Shown: piece after piece, positions 7,609 through 28,964 of the stretch
How positions within the stretch are numbered: position 1 is the first letter of the stretch
How the letters are laid out: every line of letters starts with the position of its first letter
Assembly (NCBI GenBank): GCA_019233825.1
Contig: JAFAMB010000045.1
Span: forward strand, 1-35,041
Origin: Verrucomicrobiota bacterium
GTDB taxonomy: Bacteria; Verrucomicrobiota; Verrucomicrobiia; Chthoniobacterales; JAFAMB01
DNA length: 35,041 bases
Direction of reading: 5' to 3'
The notes under the pieces: model-generated
The model's database searches: none
Told to the model about the DNA's origin: nothing
Seen by the model: the letters and a program-made list of their open reading frames with translations, nothing else
Translations under genes and position numbers: made by a program

Positions 7609-8091
7609 ATGACTATGCGACTACAGATTGGTGATCCGGCTCCTGATTTTAAAGCAACCGCGGTCGGCGGCATCTACGGTGGTGGCCAAGAGGTAAAACT
7701 TGCCGACTTCGCAGGTTCAACATTGGTTCTGTATTTTTACCCAAAGGACGATACCCCGGGGTGCACAGCGCAAGCCTGCGACTTGCGCGACTCCTGGCGC
7801 GAACTCCAATCTAAGGTGGAACTCTTCGGCGTCAGCACCGATAGCGTTGAAAGCCACCAGAAGTTTATCAAAAAACATGGTCTTCCATTTCCGCTTCTAA
7901 GCGATCCGCACCAGGAGATTGTGAACGCGTATCAGGTGTGGGTCGAGAAAAGCATGTACGGAAAGAAACACATGGGTACGGAGCGGACTACCTACCTCAT
8001 CGGCCCCGATCAGAAAATAAAAGCTGTCCTCAAGAAGGTGAAGCCTACCGAGCATATGACGCAGCTATTGAAGGCACTTTCTTCCCGGTAG
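7609..8091 (+). CDS. bcp: Thioredoxin-dependent peroxiredoxin, Bcp/PrxQ type
   Basis: 160 aa from ATG 7609 (a second ATG lies at 7615). The ORF track start at 7540 would overlap the previous gene and lacks support. Bcp reduces hydrogen peroxide and lipid hydroperoxides with thioredoxin. YPKDDTPGCTAQACDLRD contains the peroxidatic Cys52 and the resolving Cys57, the CX4C spacing of atypical 2-Cys PrxQ enzymes. Downstream FGVSTDSVESHQKF and the C-terminal strand KHMGTERTTYLIGPD fit the family. It follows the flavoprotein by 25 nt and is probably in the same transcript. Its TAG stop lies in CCCGGTAG, the head of a hairpin repeat. Confidence 0.93.
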   Translation: MTMRLQIGDPAPDFKATAVGGIYGGGQEVKLADFAGSTLVLYFYPKDDTPGCTAQACDLRDSWRELQSKVELFGVSTDSVESHQKFIKKHGLPFPLLSDPHQEIVNAYQVWVEKSMYGKKHMGTERTTYLIGPDQKIKAVLKKVKPTEHMTQLLKALSSR

Positions 8092-8379
8092 ACAAGGGGC
8101 GCGCTCCCGCGCGATCCGGGTATGCACGTCTAAGAAACGTGAACACGGGCTTCCCTAGAGCGCCCAAGTCGAATTGCAGAACCCGAAAAGACGTTTTGAA
8201 ACGTGCACGCCGGGATCGCGCGGGAGCGCGCCGCTACCGACGGGCACGCCCGGGCGTGCGGGAGCGCATCCCTGCCATCGGCCATGGCCGGATCGCGCGG
8301 CCACAAGCAGGATGCTTATGCTACCTTCATGCCGCCGCCATCGTACGCTGTTACCGTCCGAGCGCCTCCTCTACCAGAA
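8092..8379. repeat. Hairpin repeat cluster between bcp and the DUF697 gene
   Basis: Four foldable units are visible: CGCGC-TCCC-GCGCG (8100-8113, behind CGGTAG), CGCGC-GGGA-GCGCG then CCGCTACC (8217-8238), GCACGC-CCGG-GCGTGC (about 8244-8259) and AAGCA-GGA-TGCTT then ATGCTACC (8305-8325). The frames crossing them (7938-8468, 8174-8383 and the first 59 codons of ORF 8203) are rejected as coding. Confidence 0.8.
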
Positions 8380-9657: not shown

Positions 9658-11025
9658 ATGAAAATATCTGAAATCATGTCAACTTTGGTTTCGCTCGGCG
9701 CTTCTCCTCGTAAGTCTTTGGGGCAAAACTTTTTACATGATAAGAATCTGGCTTCTTGGATCGTCGGAAAACTAGAAATCGAAGCGGGCGATCACGTGCT
9801 GGAAGTGGGTCCCGGCCTTGGTGCTTTGACCGAAGAAATAATGCGTTGTGGGGTGTCGGCAACTTTGCTGGAAAAGGATCGGGCGTTTGCAAAATACCTC
9901 CGTGAAAGGTTTCAAAACGCACCTGTTGAAGTCATCGAAGGGGACGCTCTGGAATATGACACCCGAATCGAGTTTCTGCGTCGACCGGTCAAAATCATCG
10001 GGAATCTGCCTTACTATTTGTCATCCGCCCTGCTCTTTCATTTCAGTGCGGATCCATGCCCTTTTGAGCGGATGGTCTTCACTGTGCAAAAGGAGATGGC
10101 GGATCGCCTAAGCGCGGCTCCCGGCAACAAGGCGTACGGGAGTCTAAGTGTCATCATTCAGAGAGAATGGCAGGTCAGCAAGTTGAAGACCCTTGCTCCT
10201 TCCGTATTTCTCCCTGAGCCGCAGGTAGATTCGGTAGTTTTATTGCTGAAGCGGCGAGAACCTGGCGATCTCGAGGAGACCGATCCGATAACATTTTCTG
10301 AGGTGGTGAGGGCGGGGTTTTCCGAGCGCCGCAAACAGGTGAGAAAGTTACTGGGCCGGTTCGGGGATTCTGAAACGGTCGAGGCGGCTCTGCGTGCGGT
10401 TCATCTTCCATTAACGGCCAGAGCCGAGGATGTTTCATTGGATCAGTGGATTAAGATCGTAAACGCGCTTCAACCGTCACCCGTCTTTGGTCCCGATCCG
10501 CTCGAACTCCTGGAAACAGTAGATCATAACGATCAGCCCCTCCAGGCGAAGAACCGTGCAACAATTCACCGCGAGAATCTGCTACACCGTGCAGTCCACA
10601 TTTTTATCCTAAACCGGCCCGGCGAACTGCTTTTACAGAAACGCTCCTGCCACAAGGATAATTTCCCGCGCCGTTGGGATTCGAGTGCCGCCGGCCACGT
10701 GAATGCCAGTGAATCGTATAGGAATTGTGCCGAACGTGAACTGAAGGAAGAACTGGGGGTCAGCGCCGCCCTAGTGGCTATGGACAGAATCCCGGCCTCA
10801 GAGGCGACCGGCCATGAATTTATCCAGATTTTCGCGGCTATCCATGACGGGCCTTTCTCCTGGAACCGGTATGAGATCGAAACCGGGGGATTTTTCGAGC
10901 TCGGTATGATTGATGCGTGGATTGGACGGCGTCCTGAGGATTTCGCGTCCGGGTTCGTGGAGTGCTATCGATCCGTGCGAGGTGCGCTGGAAAATCCTTC
11001 TGAGATTTCGGCAAAAGCTGGGTAG
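9658..11025 (+). CDS. rsmA: RsmA (KsgA) 16S rRNA dimethyltransferase fused to a Nudix hydrolase domain
   Basis: 455 aa in one uninterrupted frame. Residues 1 to about 270 are a complete RsmA, which N6,N6-dimethylates A1518 and A1519 of 16S rRNA: GQNFLHD (22-28), SAM motif VLEVGPGLG (47-55), catalytic NLPY (116-119), PEPQVDSVV, GFSERRKQVRKLL and RAEDVSLDQWIKI. RsmA normally ends there. Here a linker leads into a full Nudix domain (about 283-440) of the IPP-isomerase-like/YfcD type: LLHRAVHIFILN, LLLQKRSCHKD, and a perfect Nudix box GHVNASESYRNCAEREL...EELG at 346-365 (GX5EX7REX2EEXG). The ORF start ATG 9658 is preferred; an in-frame ATG lies six codons later. The Nudix substrate is not evident. 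The TAG stop is inside a hairpin repeat. Confidence 0.92.
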   Translation: MKISEIMSTLVSLGASPRKSLGQNFLHDKNLASWIVGKLEIEAGDHVLEVGPGLGALTEEIMRCGVSATLLEKDRAFAKYLRERFQNAPVEVIEGDALEYDTRIEFLRRPVKIIGNLPYYLSSALLFHFSADPCPFERMVFTVQKEMADRLSAAPGNKAYGSLSVIIQREWQVSKLKTLAPSVFLPEPQVDSVVLLLKRREPGDLEETDPITFSEVVRAGFSERRKQVRKLLGRFGDSETVEAALRAVHLPLTARAEDVSLDQWIKIVNALQPSPVFGPDPLELLETVDHNDQPLQAKNRATIHRENLLHRAVHIFILNRPGELLLQKRSCHKDNFPRRWDSSAAGHVNASESYRNCAERELKEELGVSAALVAMDRIPASEATGHEFIQIFAAIHDGPFSWNRYEIETGGFFELGMIDAWIGRRPEDFASGFVECYRSVRGALENPSEISAKAG

Positions 11026-11082
11026 GCGAACCGTCTCGGTTTGCTCGGCTCCGAAAATCGCAAAGCGGGACGCTTCGCCTAC
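11022..11082. terminator. Pair of facing hairpins between convergent genes; possible bidirectional terminator
   Basis: GTAG then GCGAACCG-TCT-CGGTTTGC (11022-11044) faces GCAAAGCG-GGA-CGCTTCGC then CTAC (11060-11082). Each folds with an 8-bp stem including a wobble or mismatch. They lie between the ends of rsmA-nudix and the acyl-CoA oxidase-like gene. The TAG stops of both genes (11023-11025 and, on the minus strand, 11079-11081) are part of the outer GTAG/CTAC ends. No U tract follows, so the termination role is inferred from location only. Confidence 0.5.
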
Positions 11083-13031
11083 AGTGCGATCGGGGCGGCC
11101 AGACAGGAATCCGGAATCCCAAAGGAATCAACTAATTGAACCGCGTCTTGGCGAACTTCCTGGCAAAGCTTATCGACTGTCCGAGTAATGGCCTGTGATT
11201 TCCAACCAGTGAGCGAGCCTTGTTCCAGGTACCATCCCTTATGCAGCTCGATCCGCGATAGAGCAAACAGATCGCACAGCCGCCTGAGAGCCTGTCTAAC
11301 AGCCGAAGACTGAACCGTGCTGATCGTCTGAGCAAATCGCTCGAGGATGACCCGTTCCACGTGCGCATGGGCGAGTTCGAGAAGCTCGCGTTGCATGCGC
11401 GTAAAGGCAACGTAAGGCTCTATTTTCTTTCTGCCGGTCAAACAACGGAATTTTCGTGCGGTGGAGAGCAGCGTGGTCGTTTCCCGGAGCCGCAGCATCA
11501 TCAAGTGGAAACCCGCATCCCGAAGGTGGCCTTCCACGATATTCAAAGTAAACGTCGGAATGCGCTGAGCGATCGCGGTGAGCCTTTGATCAATGAAAAA
11601 CCCCGCCATCTGCGCCGGTCGCATCTCTTTAAGCTTATCCTTGAAATCGCTAAGCAAATTCCTGGCAACCAATTGCATAAGCACAGTGTTATCCCCTTCG
11701 AACGTGGTGCAGATGTCCGTATCGGCTTTCAACGTGCTCAACCGGTTTACGGCCAGATACCCCTCTCCGCCGCAGGCTTCGCGACAGGTCTGGATCGTAT
11801 GAGTGGTATTCCAAGTCGTGAACGCTTTTAATCCTGCCGCCAGCGTTTCGAGCGGGCGTGAACTTCCCGTGCGCACCGTTTCCTTTTGTTCAATCAGATA
11901 TTTGAGAGCGAAATCGAGTGCGAAGACGTTCGCAAGGAGCGGACAAAGCCGCCTTTGGTGAGCAGGATAGTCCAAAAGCAGCGTCTCCTGACTTGCCTTC
12001 GGCGCACCGAACTGTCGCCGGCGAGCGGCATAGCGGATAGCAATTGTCAGCGCGCTCTTGGCGGCACTATTGGCGGCGGAAGCCATGCTGATTCGCCCGC
12101 TCACAAGCGTCCCGATCATCGCGAAGAAACGCACTGTCTGGCTTTGAAATTCGCTCCGATATTGCCCGTGGACCGTCACATTCGCGAATCGATTCAGCAT
12201 TTCGCCGCGCGGCACGCTCACATGGTCGAACCAGATCCGGCCGTTATCAATGCCGTTCAAACCCATCTTCAACCCGTTGTCTTCGATCGTAACTCCCGGG
12301 AACGGATTTCCCTTTTCGTCTCGAATCGGCACCACAAAGGCGTGTACGCCATGTTTTTGGCCACCTACCTCCAGTTGCGCGAACACGGTGGCGAACCGCC
12401 CATCATCGGCCGCGTTTCCGATGAAATTCTTACCCGCAAAGTAAGTTGGGCTATGGAGGATGAAACAATCGCTCGCTCTGTCGTAAACGGCGGTCGTCTC
12501 CAGGGCCTGAACATTTGAACCATGACCGATCTCTGTCATGGCGAAACAACCCATCAACTTTGCGGCCGCGGCACCGGGCAGATATTTCTGGTGGTGGTAT
12601 TCACTGCCAAGCTGTTGAATGCTACCTGCGAACAGACCGAATTGTACGCCCAGCTTTATTACGAGGCTGATATCGTGAAAAGCAAGCGTTTCGAACGCGG
12701 CCATGAACTTTGGAACACTTTCTTCGCCACCGACTGAACGGGGCATAAAGATTCGACCAATTCCGGCGTCCGCAATCCGCTTTGTCCAGTCGACAACCTG
12801 CCTCCTCTGCACAGCCATATCATTCCCGTCGTAATACCGGAATTCGGGCTGAGTTATGAGCTGCTTGACCCAATTTCGGATTTCAACGTGATCCCCATCC
12901 AGAACGCGCTGCAACACCTTGGGATCGAAAGTCGAAGATCTTCTTTCGATGGGCGGATAACTCGGTCCCGCGCCTGCCTGAGAGGCTGTCGCGCCTTCGA
13001 CCTTCAGAGGCTTTTCGAGAATCTCTTTCAT
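11079..13031 (-). CDS. Acyl-CoA dehydrogenase/oxidase (ACOX-like), last gene of beta-oxidation operon
   Basis: 650 aa from ATG at 13031 (MKEILEKPLKVEG), which follows the previous stop by 10 nt and has a GGCGAG-like ribosome site. The ORF track start at 13142 would overlap fadJ by 100 nt. It performs the first, FAD-dependent oxidation of acyl-CoA to trans-2-enoyl-CoA. Sequence features resemble peroxisomal acyl-CoA oxidases more than short acyl-CoA dehydrogenases: MTEIGHGSNVQALETTA, HGVHAFVVPIRD, LKMGLNGIDNGRIWFDHV, FEGDNTV with the probable catalytic Glu, and a long C-terminal domain ending QDAVQLVDSFGIPDSCLAAPI, as in ACOX. Whether electrons go to O2 or to ETF cannot be settled from sequence. 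It completes the operon fadD-fadI-fadJ-this gene. Confidence 0.88.
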   Translation of the reverse strand: MKEILEKPLKVEGATASQAGAGPSYPPIERRSSTFDPKVLQRVLDGDHVEIRNWVKQLITQPEFRYYDGNDMAVQRRQVVDWTKRIADAGIGRIFMPRSVGGEESVPKFMAAFETLAFHDISLVIKLGVQFGLFAGSIQQLGSEYHHQKYLPGAAAAKLMGCFAMTEIGHGSNVQALETTAVYDRASDCFILHSPTYFAGKNFIGNAADDGRFATVFAQLEVGGQKHGVHAFVVPIRDEKGNPFPGVTIEDNGLKMGLNGIDNGRIWFDHVSVPRGEMLNRFANVTVHGQYRSEFQSQTVRFFAMIGTLVSGRISMASAANSAAKSALTIAIRYAARRRQFGAPKASQETLLLDYPAHQRRLCPLLANVFALDFALKYLIEQKETVRTGSSRPLETLAAGLKAFTTWNTTHTIQTCREACGGEGYLAVNRLSTLKADTDICTTFEGDNTVLMQLVARNLLSDFKDKLKEMRPAQMAGFFIDQRLTAIAQRIPTFTLNIVEGHLRDAGFHLMMLRLRETTTLLSTARKFRCLTGRKKIEPYVAFTRMQRELLELAHAHVERVILERFAQTISTVQSSAVRQALRRLCDLFALSRIELHKGWYLEQGSLTGWKSQAITRTVDKLCQEVRQDAVQLVDSFGIPDSCLAAPIAL

Positions 13032-13041
13032 CTCGCCATTT

Positions 13042-15198
13042 TCAAGATTTAGTTTCGGGTAAGGGCGGAAGACCTGTTTTTTTTCCCGGGTAAAAACTTC
13101 CGCCGCGCGTTGCCATATCAGCGAGAAGTGAGCAGGGCTCAAAATATGCCCCGACGCGATCCCGGAGGTTGTTCAATCGGCTGACTACCGTAGGAACGCC
13201 GAGATGATCTGCAAATCGAAGCGGGCCTCCGCGAAAAGGTGCCCAGCCGGTGCCCATGATCATGCCGAAATCGGCATCCTCAGGAGCGTCGACCACTTTC
13301 TCCTCAAGCGTACGCGCGGCTTCGTTGACCATCAACAAAACAAGCCGATCCCGCAGATCGCCTTCGTTCACCACGGCTGGTTCGGCGGGCTGGAAGCCGC
13401 TCAGTTGAGGGTTAATCTTTTCCTTCTCACCGGAGCTGTAGTCATAAAATCCCTTGCCTGATTTTCTTCCGAGCCATGCCTTGTCCATCATCTTTTCGAT
13501 CGTTTCGTCCGGTGGCGGAAGATGCTTTACCCTTTGCACAAGATCCTTTGCCACGTGTTCGGATACATCCAATCCGACTTCGTCGGTCAGCCGCAAGGGG
13601 CCCATCGGCATACCGAAATCGAGCATTACCCGATCGATCTTTTCGACTCGATGACCCTCGGCGAATAACCGCACCGCCTCGATCATATAGGGCAACAAGA
13701 TTCGGTTAACCAGGAATCCAGGACTATCCCTCACCAGGACCGGCAGCTTGCCGATGTCTTTCACGAAACGTAAGGCGGCGGTCAGAGTCGGTCCGTCTGT
13801 TTTTGTACCCCGAACGATCTCCACCAACTGCATGCGGTGCACCGGATTGAAGAAATGAATGCCGACCACCCGTTCAGGATGTGCGAGTGACGCCGCCAGC
13901 GCGTCGATCGAAAGCGCCGATGTGTTCGACGCTAGTATGGTCCCGGGCGACACGCTTGATTCCAGACTCGCGAAGATTTGCTGCTTCAGTTCGAGGTTCT
14001 CGACCGCCGCCTCCATTACGAGATCCACTTCTCGTAACGGGACCTCCTCATAAATCGGAACGATTCGATCATAGGCATTTTGCGCATCGACTTCTGAAAA
14101 CAGATGCCGTTTGACCGCCTCACGGTAAATTTTCGCGATGGACTGCATTCCCTTGCCTAAGGGAGCCGGCCCGATGTCTTTGAGTAGAATACGAATTCCG
14201 CGACTGCTCAACCACTGCGCGATGCCCGCTCCCATCAGGCCGGCGCCAACGACCAAAGCCTTCTTGATCGTTTTGGCGGGTGCGTCCGCCACCGGCTGAA
14301 CGTCCGCCGGAAGCCGGAGTTTCTTGGCCCGCTCTTGAAGGAAAAAGATTCCAATCAGATTTTGCGTGGTCTCGGTGAGAGCCAATTCGACTAAATAGTT
14401 CTTCTCATTAGCGAGTGACTGCTCATGGGACACAGTAAGACTGGCGCACGCCACCTCCAATGCCTTGAGTGGCGCCGGATAATGGCCTCGCGTTTTCGCC
14501 AAAGTCTTTTTCTCAACCTGGGATTTGACGATTTTTGACAAGGGAGACCGGTTCGCGATATGCAGTTTACACGATCGCTTTTTCCCGCGGCTTTCCTGAA
14601 TCATCTTTGCTGCCACTTCCGCCATACGTTGTGGGTGAGCGACCGCATCTACCATCCCAATTTTCAGGGCCTGTTTTGCCGCGTATTGGCGACCGGTCAG
14701 GATGGCCTCCAGTGCATTCGGTAAACCGATAAGTTTTGGCAGCCGGGTCGAGCCTCCCCATGCTGGTAAAAGTCCGAGATTGGTTTCGGGCAGCCCCACT
14801 TTTGTAGCCGAATCCGACGAGGCAACACGGTAATCACAGGCCAATGCGACCTCAAAGCCACCTCCCAGGGCAACACCGTGAATCGTGGCAACCGTCGGGT
14901 AGGGGAGACGCCCAATTCGATCAAAAGTTTTCTGACCGCGTTCGACCGCCATCGCGATCCGCTCTGCCCTGGTATCCTGAGTAAAGCTGTTGAGGTCTGC
15001 GCCCGCTATGAAAATTTTCGGTTTTGCGCTCCGAATAACCAAACCGTTCAGACCTTTTTCCGACTCAAGGAAATCCAGGTGCTCGTTAAGTTCTTCAAGC
15101 GTCCGTTCGTCGAAAATGTTTGCTGCTGAATTCGGCCGGTCAAAAGTAAGGACCGCGATCCCGGATCCGGATACTTCGCGCTGAATATTCTGTTTCAC
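13042..15198 (-). CDS. fadJ: Multifunctional enoyl-CoA hydratase / 3-hydroxyacyl-CoA dehydrogenase (FadJ type)
   Basis: 718 aa with a GTG start at 15198, chosen because a strong AGGAGA lies about 8 nt upstream and the gene begins 15 nt after the thiolase stop. It catalyses hydration of enoyl-CoA and NAD-dependent oxidation of the 3-hydroxy product. The N-terminal crotonase domain (about 1-190) has GGGFEVALACDYRVA and GLPETNLGLLPAWGG, carrying both catalytic Glu residues. The Rossmann domain starts at VVGAGLMGAGIAQWLSSRG, HFFNPVHRMQLVEIV carries the catalytic His, and GFLVNRILLPYM begins the C-terminal dehydrogenase domains. Length and domain order match FadB/FadJ. The 15-nt gap upstream and 10-nt gap downstream indicate one transcript. 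Confidence 0.94.
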   Translation of the reverse strand: MKQNIQREVSGSGIAVLTFDRPNSAANIFDERTLEELNEHLDFLESEKGLNGLVIRSAKPKIFIAGADLNSFTQDTRAERIAMAVERGQKTFDRIGRLPYPTVATIHGVALGGGFEVALACDYRVASSDSATKVGLPETNLGLLPAWGGSTRLPKLIGLPNALEAILTGRQYAAKQALKIGMVDAVAHPQRMAEVAAKMIQESRGKKRSCKLHIANRSPLSKIVKSQVEKKTLAKTRGHYPAPLKALEVACASLTVSHEQSLANEKNYLVELALTETTQNLIGIFFLQERAKKLRLPADVQPVADAPAKTIKKALVVGAGLMGAGIAQWLSSRGIRILLKDIGPAPLGKGMQSIAKIYREAVKRHLFSEVDAQNAYDRIVPIYEEVPLREVDLVMEAAVENLELKQQIFASLESSVSPGTILASNTSALSIDALAASLAHPERVVGIHFFNPVHRMQLVEIVRGTKTDGPTLTAALRFVKDIGKLPVLVRDSPGFLVNRILLPYMIEAVRLFAEGHRVEKIDRVMLDFGMPMGPLRLTDEVGLDVSEHVAKDLVQRVKHLPPPDETIEKMMDKAWLGRKSGKGFYDYSSGEKEKINPQLSGFQPAEPAVVNEGDLRDRLVLLMVNEAARTLEEKVVDAPEDADFGMIMGTGWAPFRGGPLRFADHLGVPTVVSRLNNLRDRVGAYFEPCSLLADMATRGGSFYPGKKTGLPPLPETKS

Positions 15199-18734: not shown

Positions 18735-20327
18735 ATGCTGAACGGTAAACAACAACTCAATCGGTTTCTCAGAGGCGGCATTGTGATTGCAGCGGTTACT
18801 TTTTCCGCATTCAATTCTTACCCCTCGAAAGGAGGTAGTTTCGCCATCAACGAGCAGAGCGTGGGCGGCCTGGGCGTGGCCTATGCCGGCGGCGCTGCTC
18901 AGGCGGCGGATGCGTCCACTATCTTTTTTAATCCGGCAGGTATAGCCCTGCTGAAGCAGAGTGAATTCCAACTCGGCGCTCAAGCTATTTTGCCCTCCGC
19001 CACATTTTCCAACCAGGGGTCGCGTTATAATCTGCCAAATACGGCCGTTAATGGATTACCCCTGAGCGGTGGGAATGATGGGGACGGCGGGGTTGATCAT
19101 GTTTTACCCAATCTTTATCTGTCCCTGCCGGTATTGCATAGTCCGCAGTACGGAGACTTGGCCGTTGGCATTGGTCTGAGCGTTCCCTTTGGGTTGGAGA
19201 CGGACTATAGCCCCGGCTGGGTCGGGCGTTATATTTCTTTGCGAACGAAGCTCACCACCTTCGACATCCAGCCGACCATCGCTTACCGCTTGTTCGACCG
19301 GATCTCGGTTGGAGGAAGCCTGGATATTCAGTATGCCTCTGCTCGACTTTCCCAGGCCATCGACTTCGGCTTGGCTGGGGCTCAGGCCCTCGCGCCGTTT
19401 GAACAGGCATTGCCTGCCTTACTGGCCGCTCGCGGAGTTCCCGGCCCAGCCATCCCAGCCATCGTAAGTGCGACCCAACAGGCCTACAATAATGCGGGAT
19501 TTGTCCCAGGTGGCCGCGATGGCATATTCGAAGTCAACGGTAATGACTGGAGCGTCGGGTTTACCCTCGGAGCGATTTTCGAATATTGGAAGGGCGATGA
19601 AAATTCCTTCTTTCAGGACGGCCGGTTCGGGGTGAGCTACCGGTCCGGAATCACCCACACCATAAAAGGGACCGGAAGCTTCCGCGATGTACCGACCATC
19701 GTAGCCCCCGGAGCTCCGGTTCAATTTCCTGAGCCAAACGCATTTCAGGATGTCTTCTTCACACAGGGTGCGACTGCGCAGTTGAACCTCCCGGAGATCT
19801 ACCATTTCAGTCTTTATCAGCGATTTGCACGTCAATTTGCCCTGATGGGCGACATCGCATGGCAGCGCTGGAGCAGGTTGCAAAGCGTCCCGATCGTTTT
19901 CAAAAATCCTGGTACCCCGTCGAACGTACTCCCATTGGACTACCAGGACTCACTCAGGTACGCGGCTGGTTTTGAATGGTATGCTACCAGGAATTTAACC
20001 CTGCGGCTCGGTTTCGCTTACGATGAGACCCCGATTCGAAGCGCCAATTTTCGAACTCCGCGAATTCCGGACGCCAACCGATATTTCCTGGCGGCGGGTC
20101 TCCGATGGTCACCGCTAAGCTTCATGGATATTGATGTCGGATACGCGCATCTATTTGTTGTGGATCCGATCGTAAACGTTACCGATGACGAGGGACATAA
20201 CCTCCGGGGTAGATTTGACGCCGCTATCGACATCGTGAGTGCAGCCGTCACGTTTCGATGGGGCGGTCCTAGAGAAGCGCCTTCGCCGGTGCCCTCAGGC
20301 AAAGAGCCCATCGGTTATCAAAAGTAG
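18735..20327 (+). CDS. fadL: FadL/OmpP1/TodX-family outer-membrane fatty acid transporter
   Basis: 530 aa beta-barrel that lets long-chain fatty acids or other hydrophobic molecules cross the outer membrane. The N-terminus carries a signal segment (about 1-35), followed by the family hallmark SFAINEQSVGGLGVAYAGGAA...FFNPAG, the plug domain with its NPA motif. Later strands show alternating aromatic/polar residues (LPNLYLSLPV, YAAGFEWYATRNLTLRLGF, GYAHLF), and the barrel ends VSAAVTFRWGG. A short proline-rich tail follows. At 530 aa it is somewhat longer than E. coli FadL, with an Ala-rich insertion around 215-260. Location opposite fadD supports fatty acid rather than aromatic hydrocarbon uptake. 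The TAG stop is inside a GTAGC hairpin repeat head. Confidence 0.92.
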   Translation: MLNGKQQLNRFLRGGIVIAAVTFSAFNSYPSKGGSFAINEQSVGGLGVAYAGGAAQAADASTIFFNPAGIALLKQSEFQLGAQAILPSATFSNQGSRYNLPNTAVNGLPLSGGNDGDGGVDHVLPNLYLSLPVLHSPQYGDLAVGIGLSVPFGLETDYSPGWVGRYISLRTKLTTFDIQPTIAYRLFDRISVGGSLDIQYASARLSQAIDFGLAGAQALAPFEQALPALLAARGVPGPAIPAIVSATQQAYNNAGFVPGGRDGIFEVNGNDWSVGFTLGAIFEYWKGDENSFFQDGRFGVSYRSGITHTIKGTGSFRDVPTIVAPGAPVQFPEPNAFQDVFFTQGATAQLNLPEIYHFSLYQRFARQFALMGDIAWQRWSRLQSVPIVFKNPGTPSNVLPLDYQDSLRYAAGFEWYATRNLTLRLGFAYDETPIRSANFRTPRIPDANRYFLAAGLRWSPLSFMDIDVGYAHLFVVDPIVNVTDDEGHNLRGRFDAAIDIVSAAVTFRWGGPREAPSPVPSGKEPIGYQK

Positions 20328-20405
20328 CATTAGGCTTCCAGCCTGTAATCACGTCGCCCAGGCGCCGCCCCCGACAGGCAGGATGCCATGCTACCTTGGC
20401 CTACC
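20324..20405. repeat. Hairpin repeats between convergent fadL and pstA
   Basis: GTAGCATT plus AGGCT-TCC-AGCCT (20324-20344) starts with the fadL stop codon. GGCA-GGA-TGCC then ATGCTACC (20377-20395) is followed by another CTACC (20401-20405) containing the pstA stop on the minus strand. The two units are in opposite orientation. Confidence 0.8.
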
Positions 20406-24124: not shown

Positions 24125-24221
24125 AGAATCCTTGAAAGGCAAGACCGACGCGAAGTCAACGGAGAGACGCCGGAATAAAACTTTGACCTGTCTGCAACAT
24201 CTTTTGCCTTTCAAGGATTCT
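24125..24221. repeat. 97-bp element bounded by 18-bp perfect inverted repeats
   Basis: AGAATCCTTGAAAGGCAA (24125-24142) and its exact reverse complement (24204-24221) enclose 61 nt. The element abuts the truncated end of the second pstS copy. One arm also occurs at 89-107 (CTGAGAATCCTTGAAAGGC shared over 19 nt), so the sequence is dispersed. It resembles a miniature non-autonomous element; no target-site duplication is obvious. Confidence 0.7.
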
Positions 24222-24270
24222 AGTCCTGCAGGAACCAAGGGGCAGGTCGAAGAAGAGACCGAAAGCTTTG

Positions 24271-24671
24271 ATTTTGCCTAGAAAAATTCCGAGGTAGGCT
24301 TCCCTCGAGAGCTTGAGGTTTTCCACTCCTGGCAGGTTGTACGCGAGCACAACGCTGCCAGCCGTTGCTGGAATCAGCACAACGCCCTGCTTGACCGCGG
24401 CTATTTCTTTATCCGTCATCGCCGCATCACTTGCTCCAAAGGAGACCAGGTTCCGAGTAAATTGTTTGATCCCGGCGCCGCTCCCGATTCCTTGGTAGTT
24501 AATCTGCACGTCCGGATTGGTCTTTGTATACTCGGCGATCCAGCGCTGATAAAGCGGAGCGGGGAAGGTTGCGCCTGCTCCCTTTAACTGGGTAGCCGCA
24601 AAGGCTGACCAGGAAAAAAACTGAGTAACTAAGGCGCCCAGAAAGAGGAATGACGCTTTGCGAGTTTTCAT
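24271..24671 (-). pseudogene. pstS: Truncated second pstS (phosphate-binding protein)
   Basis: From ATG 24671 (MKTRKASFLFLGALVTQ) about 134 residues are nearly identical to the intact pstS, including the signal peptide, GAGATFPAPLYQRW, YQGIGSGAGIKQF and FGASDAAMTD. Similarity stops after REAYLGIFLGK at about 24271, where the intact copy continues VTKWSDPAIAKTNEG. The open frame runs on to 24156 through unrelated sequence and the inverted-repeat element (ending MLQTGQSFIPASLR), so the translated product would be 171 aa with a foreign tail. More than half of the binding protein is missing, so it cannot be a functional PstS. Ribosome site and Pho-box-like site are preserved, so it may still be expressed. 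Confidence 0.9.
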
Positions 24672-24730
24672 AAGGCAGTGGCTTCCTTCCTCCACTGCGA
24701 AAAATCCGTTGGTTCGGCAACCTTTCAATC

Positions 24731-25352: not shown

Positions 25353-26065
25353 AGTTGACCCGCCATACTCGCGTGGCGATATGGGGCGGGATGCCAGATT
25401 TAGCTCGTTCGACCAAGGTCTACCAACTCCCGTTTCTGACGCGCAGCCTGATTTGGCTTGGCTCGATCCTGGTGAATTTGTTATGCACGACCTTGCGTTT
25501 CAAGATCGTCGATGATGCGGACTTTCTCAGGGGACGGTGCCCGGGACCGGTAGTGATTTTAATTTGGCATAATCGCATCCTGGCTATGCCGGTAGTCTTT
25601 CGCCGGTATTACCCAAAGCGGAAAGGTTTGTTCGTGCTTACAAGTGCAAGCCGGGATGGTGCCTATCTGTCCGAATTCGTGCGCTGTTTCGGCATGCGGG
25701 CTGTCCGCGGATCGACTTCCCGGGGTGGCGCTGCCGCACTCCTCGATCTCGTCCGAAATCTGGAAACTGGATTCGATCTTTGCATTACACCGGACGGACC
25801 GAGAGGTCCCAGGTATAGCCTCGGGCCCGGCGCCATCCTGCTTTCAAAGAAGTGCCGGGTGCCCATCATGCCGCTCCTGATAGAGTATTCCGCATATTGG
25901 CGCTTTAATTCATGGGACGGCTTCGCCGTCCCAAGGCCCTTCTCCCGGGTGACCGTGACCACTCTGCCACTAATCGAAATCGGGCCCACGGAATCGGAAA
26001 TAGAATTTGAAAAAGAACGGAAGCGCGTTGAAATCGCGATGACCGAAAGGCTGTTGATGAGGTGA
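25349..26065 (+). CDS. Lysophospholipid acyltransferase family protein (DUF374 type)
   Basis: 238 aa with a TTG start at 25349 overlapping the preceding TGA (TTGA); ATG 25391 is an alternative. An N-terminal hydrophobic stretch (LIWLGSILVNLLCTTL) anchors it. LIWHNRILAMPVVF holds the His of the acyltransferase site, followed by LFVLTSASRDGAYLSEFVRCFG, RGSTSRGGAAALLDLVR, and CITPDGPRGPRYSLGPGAILLSKK, which are typical of DUF374. Proteins of this class transfer acyl chains to lipid acceptors at the inner membrane; the lipid here is unknown. A decayed copy lies at 23638-23730. The stop codon shares its GA with the first 9-bp unit of the repeat element that follows. Confidence 0.85.
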   Translation: MKLTRHTRVAIWGGMPDLARSTKVYQLPFLTRSLIWLGSILVNLLCTTLRFKIVDDADFLRGRCPGPVVILIWHNRILAMPVVFRRYYPKRKGLFVLTSASRDGAYLSEFVRCFGMRAVRGSTSRGGAAALLDLVRNLETGFDLCITPDGPRGPRYSLGPGAILLSKKCRVPIMPLLIEYSAYWRFNSWDGFAVPRPFSRVTVTTLPLIEIGPTESEIEFEKERKRVEIAMTERLLMR

Positions 26066-26239
26066 AAACGCCGAAAACGCCGAAAACGCCGAGAACGCCC
26101 GAGAACGCCCGAGAACGCCCGAGAGCGGGCGAACGGTTGAATGGCGAGTGCCAAATAATTAACGGCTAAGAATAACAGCTCTGTGCTTTTCCTTTGGCAT
26201 TGCCGTTCCCGTGCGTTCTCGGCGTTCTCGGCGTTTTCC
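26064..26239 (+). repeat. Inverted-repeat element with 9-bp tandem arms, copy 1
   Basis: The left arm is three GAAAACGCC then three GAGAACGCCC units (26064-26120). The right arm is the reverse complement in 9-bp units, GCGTTCTC-GGCGTTCTC-GGCGTTTTC (26213-26239). The core (about 26141-26204, including GCCAAATAATTAACG) is shared, inverted, with the second copy at 28812-28964. ORFs crossing it give the spurious VNYLALAIQPFAR and AFSAFSAFS peptides. It occupies most of the space between the acyltransferase and rmlB. Confidence 0.9.
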
Positions 26240-28811: not shown

Positions 28812-28964
28812 GGGGAAACGCCGAGAACGTCGAAAACGCCCGAGAACGCCGAGAAGGGCAAATGCAAAAGAAGAAACACCGAACTATTTCTTCTTAGGCG
28901 TTAATTATTTGGCGCTTGCCATCCAGTCATTCGCGCGCGTTCTCGGCGTTCTCGGCGTTTCCCC
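28812..28964 (-). repeat. Inverted-repeat element with 9-bp tandem arms, copy 2 (opposite orientation)
   Basis: The left arm is GGAAACGCC-GAGAACGTC-GAAAACGCCC-GAGAACGCC (28814-28850). The right arm is GCGTTCTC-GGCGTTCTC-GGCGTTTCC (28937-28963). The core read on the minus strand (ATGGCAAGCGCCAAATAATT...) matches the core of copy 1 closely. The element fills the whole gap between the upstream TAG and the pdxY stop codon. Confidence 0.9.

Follow-up and report, generated by a model that had tools for sequence, protein, structure and literature searches.

The repeats analysed here most closely resemble the GTAG superfamily of REPs, a kind of small non-autonomous repeat that is mobilised by RAYT (TnpA-REP) tyrosine transposases. 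Di Nocera, De Gregorio and Rocco (2013) found REPs mostly near gene 3' ends, between convergent as well as unidirectional genes, and reported that GTAG REP termini often supply the TAG stop of flanking ORFs, a stop termed opal in that paper, TAG being the amber codon (PMC3733652). Opitutus terrae, a member of the Verrucomicrobia, is rich in such repeats (PMC3733652). The core of the finding presented below is thus already known from this work, with which our repeats have in common a high copy number, an arrangement as inverted dimers, a tag adjoining a short palindrome, sites at 3' ends and TAG used as a stop; what we add is a check of the stop overlap against orthologues and reading frames. 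As far as could be checked, the families described below are new members, the 24 families of PMC3733652 lying outside the sequence comparison.

Two further systems are relevant. The SMAG/REP_Sm repeats of S. maltophilia are paired units of 23 nt in which GTAG is joined to an 8-bp stem with a 3-nt loop (PMC2613905, PMC2817692, PMC8266576), an architecture also found here in a family (family A) that differs from them in stem and loop sequence. In S. maltophilia, a GTAG family has been observed to give way to another at a locus (PMC2613905, PMC2817692, PMC8266576), and in characterised systems the transposase reads the GTAG tag and cleaves at CT (PMC8266576). The REP/BIME elements of E. coli are likewise paired palindromes at 3' ends, for which effects near stops have been reported (PMC12306157); their stem has a conserved bulge (PMC8266576), whereas the family A stem has none.

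The window, i. e. the whole analysed stretch of 35,041 nucleotides, belongs to a soil Verrucomicrobiota MAG (G000; draft contigs, 1.88 Mb, 71%-complete), whose nearest named relatives are Verrucomicrobiota MAGs as well. Two convergent genes and the space between them contain the following features:

9658..11025, + strand: rsmA (RrnaAD) + NUDIX fusion gene (ORF, Pfam)
11022..11082, both strands: family A REP dimer (BIME-like), 61 bp, two inverted GTAG-tagged hairpins
11022..11044, + strand: left REP monomer GTAGGCGAACCGTCTCGGTTTGC, unpaired GTAG, 8-bp stem, 3-nt loop; z -4.0
11023..11025, + strand: TAG stop of rsmA-nudix, within the left tag
11060..11082, - strand: right REP monomer GTAGGCGAAGCGTCCCGCTTTGC, fold like the left monomer; z -3.0
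11079..11081, - strand: TAG stop of the acyl-CoA oxidase gene (CTA on the + strand), within the right tag
11079..13142, - strand: acyl-CoA oxidase (ACOX) gene (ORF, Pfam)

On the + strand, the element reads GTAGGCGAACCG...CGCTTCGCCTAC, a GTAG...CTAC inverted repeat that takes up the entire intergenic space. By folding, the family A monomer comprises 23 nt (unpaired GTAG tag, 8-bp stem and 3-nt loop), and two such units are joined tail-to-tail in a dimer that folds as a 61-nt single strand with -21 kcal/mol (z -5.5). The original prediction that the GTAG/CTAC end of the hairpin holds the stop of both genes is borne out, since TAG at 11023-11025 and CTA at 11079-11081 are read there. An Rfam scan of the window returned nothing beyond a tRNA.

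For statistics, 834 kb of G000 (45% of the assembly, the window included) were sampled. Because the first batch of stretches was picked via family A matches, the sample is partly enriched for repeat-bearing contigs, and the fraction of genes ended by repeats in G000 is approximate; this enrichment should not produce a contrast between TAG and TAA/TGA. A simple home-made codon-pair caller, applied to the draft MAG contigs, gave 670 to 685 genes in the 834 kb, with TGA, TAG and TAA as stops in 293, 230 and 147 cases, respectively. In addition, 421 kb of a sister species (G003) were sampled, and the same-genus relatives G001, G002 and G003 served for orthologue comparison.

Several TAG-ended repeat families are present in the MAG:

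Family A, starting with GTAG: GTAGGCGAA
Family B, starting with GTAG: GTAGGGCGAGG
Family C, starting with GTAG: GTAGCATAGGC
Family D, starting with GTAG: GTAGGG-CGCGC
Family F, starting with CTAG or NTAG: TAGCCTGCATCGC
Family G, starting with CTAG or NTAG: TAGCCCGCAA
Family H, starting with CTAG or NTAG: TAGCGAGGCGG

Family A displays hallmarks of GTAG REPs, with an unpaired tag, a high and dispersed copy number and inverted pairing, and the repeat ends in the sample lie mostly in intergenic DNA near gene 3' ends. The whole assembly contains at least 17 exact-ended family A dimers (GTAGGCGA...TTCGCCTAC) with units in opposite orientation. The 12-nt tag end GTAGGCGAAGCG occurs in 42 copies in G000, 52 in G003 and 0-8 in the other relatives; given this excess over the background seen in 26 other relatives, the spread of family A was recent and lineage-specific. 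In families A to D the whole GTAG is nearly invariant (GT precedes AG in 50 of the 52 family A copies away from stops), while in families F, G and H the preceding base is not fixed as G and the palindromes are longer.

Other repeats were noted in the window as well. A family C-related sequence of 27 nt (GCTAC...AGGCTGGAAGCCT) is present in three head-to-tail copies at 504-584. Repeats of a nine-base unit (GAAAACGCC and variants) stand in tandem immediately after gene stops at both 26064-26128 and 28814-28862, and similar arrays come after other stops in the genome. A family H-related repeat with arms of AGAATCCTTGAAAGGCAA is found at 24125-24221. It may supply the TGA stop of the minus-strand ORF 24156-24728, whose TGA and apparently last residues lie within a sequence that has 13 copies in the sample.

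A candidate for the mobilising enzyme was found beside family C:

G000:C28:14904-18143 (locus L005), 1456-2106 of the locus: RAYT-like ORF, with inverted family C repeats at 1424 and 2140-2215

The gene matches Y1_Tnp (PF01797) and the NCBIfam model REP_Tyr_transpos (8e-15), in the latter case with 54.9 bits and thus under the equivalog cut-off of 80 bits. As in described REPtrons, this Y1_Tnp gene has inverted GTAG repeats on both sides; it departs from them in its sub-cut-off match. The pairing with family C recurs in G002 and, on one side only, in G003. A RAYT gene flanked by inverted REPs was found for family C only: no linked transposase was seen for family A in the part of the genome covered, nor for families F, G and H in the sampled sequence, and a single RAYT mechanism may not account for every family, F, G and H included. 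A PDB search with the RAYT-like protein gave only a spurious weak match and no hit to a solved TnpA-REP structure. At the same locus (1424-2230 for the gene with its flanking repeats), a row of four family C copies stands on one side of the RAYT-like gene, and an aminotransferase-like gene upstream of it likewise ends in the TAG of a repeat.

Both TAG and hairpin repeats are common, and the overlaps could in principle be coincidental or artefacts of gene calling, the more so as the window itself offers few examples, and pstA, one of the five put forward, lies outside its repeat (see below). The wider sample makes this explanation extremely improbable. Among 202 repeat ends in the 834 kb of G000, 31 coincide exactly with an in-frame gene stop, while 35 lie at 1-30 nt from a same-strand stop with at most five at any single distance; of the remaining classes, 40 ends are found 31-300 nt downstream of stops and 19 within genes. 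Only 10 out-of-frame cases were seen, namely four genes that end in the element and six that read through it, so that 31 of 41 are in frame against a chance expectation of one third (p=4e-8), and in G003 the ratio is 17 in frame to 3 out of frame. The proposed tabulation of TAG against TAA/TGA genes gave the enrichment expected from the original prediction in 45% of G000, and the same pattern in G003. A 12-mer of at least five copies starts at the stop in 27 of 230 TAG genes vs 3 of 447 TAA and TGA genes in G000 (odds ratio 19.7, p=1e-10), and in 19 of 112 vs 7 of 202 in the 421 kb of G003 (p=6e-5). Moreover, the cases include clearly real conserved proteins, acyl-CoA oxidase for one. When structure was tested independently of the repeats, by a 7-bp stem that starts at most 2 nt from the stop, the contrast was weak, with 12 of 230 vs 12 of 447 genes in G000 (p=0.12) and p=0.03 in G003, which indicates that the stop signal resides in the repeat sequences and not in short hairpins per se. 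The supply of stop codons by repeats is thus real and non-random, and accounts for about 30 of the 230 TAG stops in the G000 sample.

Three other genes of the window, bcp, fadL and pstA, had been named as examples, and the repeats beside them are as follows:

8095..8235, both strands: family D-like long inverted repeat, arms 8095-8136 and 8194-8235
20324..20346, + strand: degenerate family C REP GTAGCATTAGGCTTCCAGCCTGT, supplying the fadL stop 20325-20327
20373..20394, - strand: a further family C REP in inverted orientation, downstream of pstA; the pstA stop 20401-20403 lies outside

These loci fared differently. For fadL, the assignment stood: its TAG (20325-20327) sits inside a degenerate copy (GTAGCATTAGGCTTCC / GTAGCATAGGCTTCCAGCCTG) of a family other than A, and the corresponding codon in G002 is TAA. 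In the case of bcp, a repeat origin is plausible, as the protein ends in SSR* here and in SS* with TGA in the closest relative G003, i. e. with one extra Arg; yet the TAG (8089-8091) is placed just outside the palindrome, four nucleotides (ACAA) ahead of the hairpin at 8095. The claim was dropped for pstA, whose TAG (20403-20401) lies beyond the repeat, upstream of the GTAG that belongs to the repeat (20394-20391), and is present in G001 and G002, which have no repeat there.

Same-genus orthologues were found for 28 genes with a stop in a repeat. Their C-terminal length is the same as in the orthologues in 18 of 28 and at most one residue apart in 22 of 28, and orthologues without the element carry TAA, TGA or TAG at the corresponding codon. 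TAA or TGA at the same codon was seen in element-free orthologues of ACOX, fadL and genes 4, 11, 17, 21, 23, 26 and 27 (numbering of the comparison). Gene 11, which we take to be DnaA-like from reading its sequence, has TGA in G003, and the ACOX stop is TAG in G003, TGA in G001 and TAA in G002. At one clean empty site (GCT|ATGAATG), a 69-bp insertion changed TGA to TAG and kept the last residue. This was the only clean site in an automated empty-site search, most loci pointing to replacement or decay and not to simple insertion. At 11022, for example, the complete intergenic stretch differs between the window and its relatives, the rsmA-nudix product ending in AKAG* here and in AKAQA* in the nearest relative. 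In one relative (locus L008, 5369-5480), another inverted repeat, TAAACCACAGATTACACAGATT...AATCTGTGGTTTA, gives rsmA-nudix a TAA stop. Taken together, the element-free orthologues with TAA or TGA and the empty site support the earlier proposal that insertions at gene ends have repeatedly replaced native stops.

The proposal had further held that such insertions trim or extend C-termini, which proved accurate in part. Among 109 orthologue pairs of G000 and G003, the length is the same in 17 of 27 element pairs vs 72 of 82 controls (nominal p=0.008, small numbers), and the stop codon differs in 14 of 27 vs 22 of 82 (nominal p=0.02, small numbers). Length changes are thus commoner than in controls but usually amount to nil or one residue; as judged from these comparisons, repeat-supplied stops appear nearly harmless to the proteins. 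Copies of families B and D carry CGG ahead of TAG, and 7 of 10 genes ended by them have the Arg codon CGG last, compared to 15% of other genes ending in Arg. Hence, genes so ended tend to acquire or retain arginine at the C-terminus.

These observations are very probably explained by GTAG-tagged REPs, mostly in inverted pairs, of the type mobilised by RAYT, whose insertions survive where they leave a clean stop; that RAYT moves them and that purifying selection acts as the filter is what we infer from the anatomy, dispersal and frame preference described above. The GTAG would be retained as a recognition tag of the transposase and not as a stop codon, and in an inverted pair the tag would present TAG on the strand that enters the pair, whichever the side. 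A copy whose TAG comes into frame on insertion at a native stop, or directly ahead of one, would give a clean gene end, with the C-terminus the same or changed by one to a few residues, and would survive, while copies entered in other frames would let the protein run into the repeat and would mostly be purged. As the TAG would be present for the transposase, it most likely serves as a stop only as a side effect, which selection then filters.

Alternatively, the elements could be a stop-plus-terminator or mRNA-stabilising module, as the original prediction had also considered, in which TAG and an immediate hairpin improve the end of translation or transcription or the stability of the message and are kept for this reason. 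The elements do adjoin gene 3' ends, convergent pairs included, with strong hairpins, and in E. coli mRNA is stabilised by REPs, while those at most 15 nt from a stop affect translation (summarised in PMC12306157). However, the intrinsic-terminator pattern of a G+C hairpin and a T run is absent at the named hairpins, there being no terminator-like U-tract at 11022-11082, at 20324-20405 or after bcp; most element ends lie away from stops, the downstream and intragenic ones counted above included; element-free orthologues are common, and families swap at one site. A module of this kind is therefore unlikely, and the terminator version of the claim finds no footing at these hairpins, although the elements may influence how stable the mRNA is or bring about termination in some other way.

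Somewhat less unlikely, if still doubtful, is an insertion targeted to stop codons, in which a core beginning with AG inserts after T (often CT), so that T|AA, T|GA and T|AG would all become TAG and leave the protein unchanged. In 17 genes, the invariant family F core (AGCC...) begins at the second base of the stop (host T + AG = TAG), and in four at the third (TG + A = TGA). Away from stops, 31 of the 64 F copies have T before AG (p=1e-6 against a background of 0.21), with CT in 19 and TG in 13, and CT is the published TnpA-REP cleavage dinucleotide (PMC8266576). There may thus be a genuine preference of the element for a T or CT target, which stop codons provide. The C-termini, too, are mostly the same as in the orthologues. 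Yet the nearly invariant GTAG of families A to D makes the T part of the element, not every element sits at a stop, and purifying selection by itself would enrich such outcomes as well. A pre-existing TAG as the required target is ruled out, since in many cases that codon is TAA or TGA in relatives without the element.

A related and rather improbable extension is that several unrelated palindromic families insert in or at stops using the stop's T (or TG), each rebuilding T|AG or TG|A. Some stops carry family F in one species and family G in the other. If the extension were true, one stop codon could be used again and again as a landing site, by one family after another in different species.

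With mobile repeats filtered at gene ends as the preferred reading, the general phenomenon is one already reported, and the gain lies mostly in the test and in the new families from uncultured Verrucomicrobiota. The frame statistics and the orthologues show that the supply of stops by GTAG repeats is no coincidence of overlap. They also show that the insertion of a repeat can turn TAA or TGA into TAG and adjust the C-terminal residues of conserved proteins.
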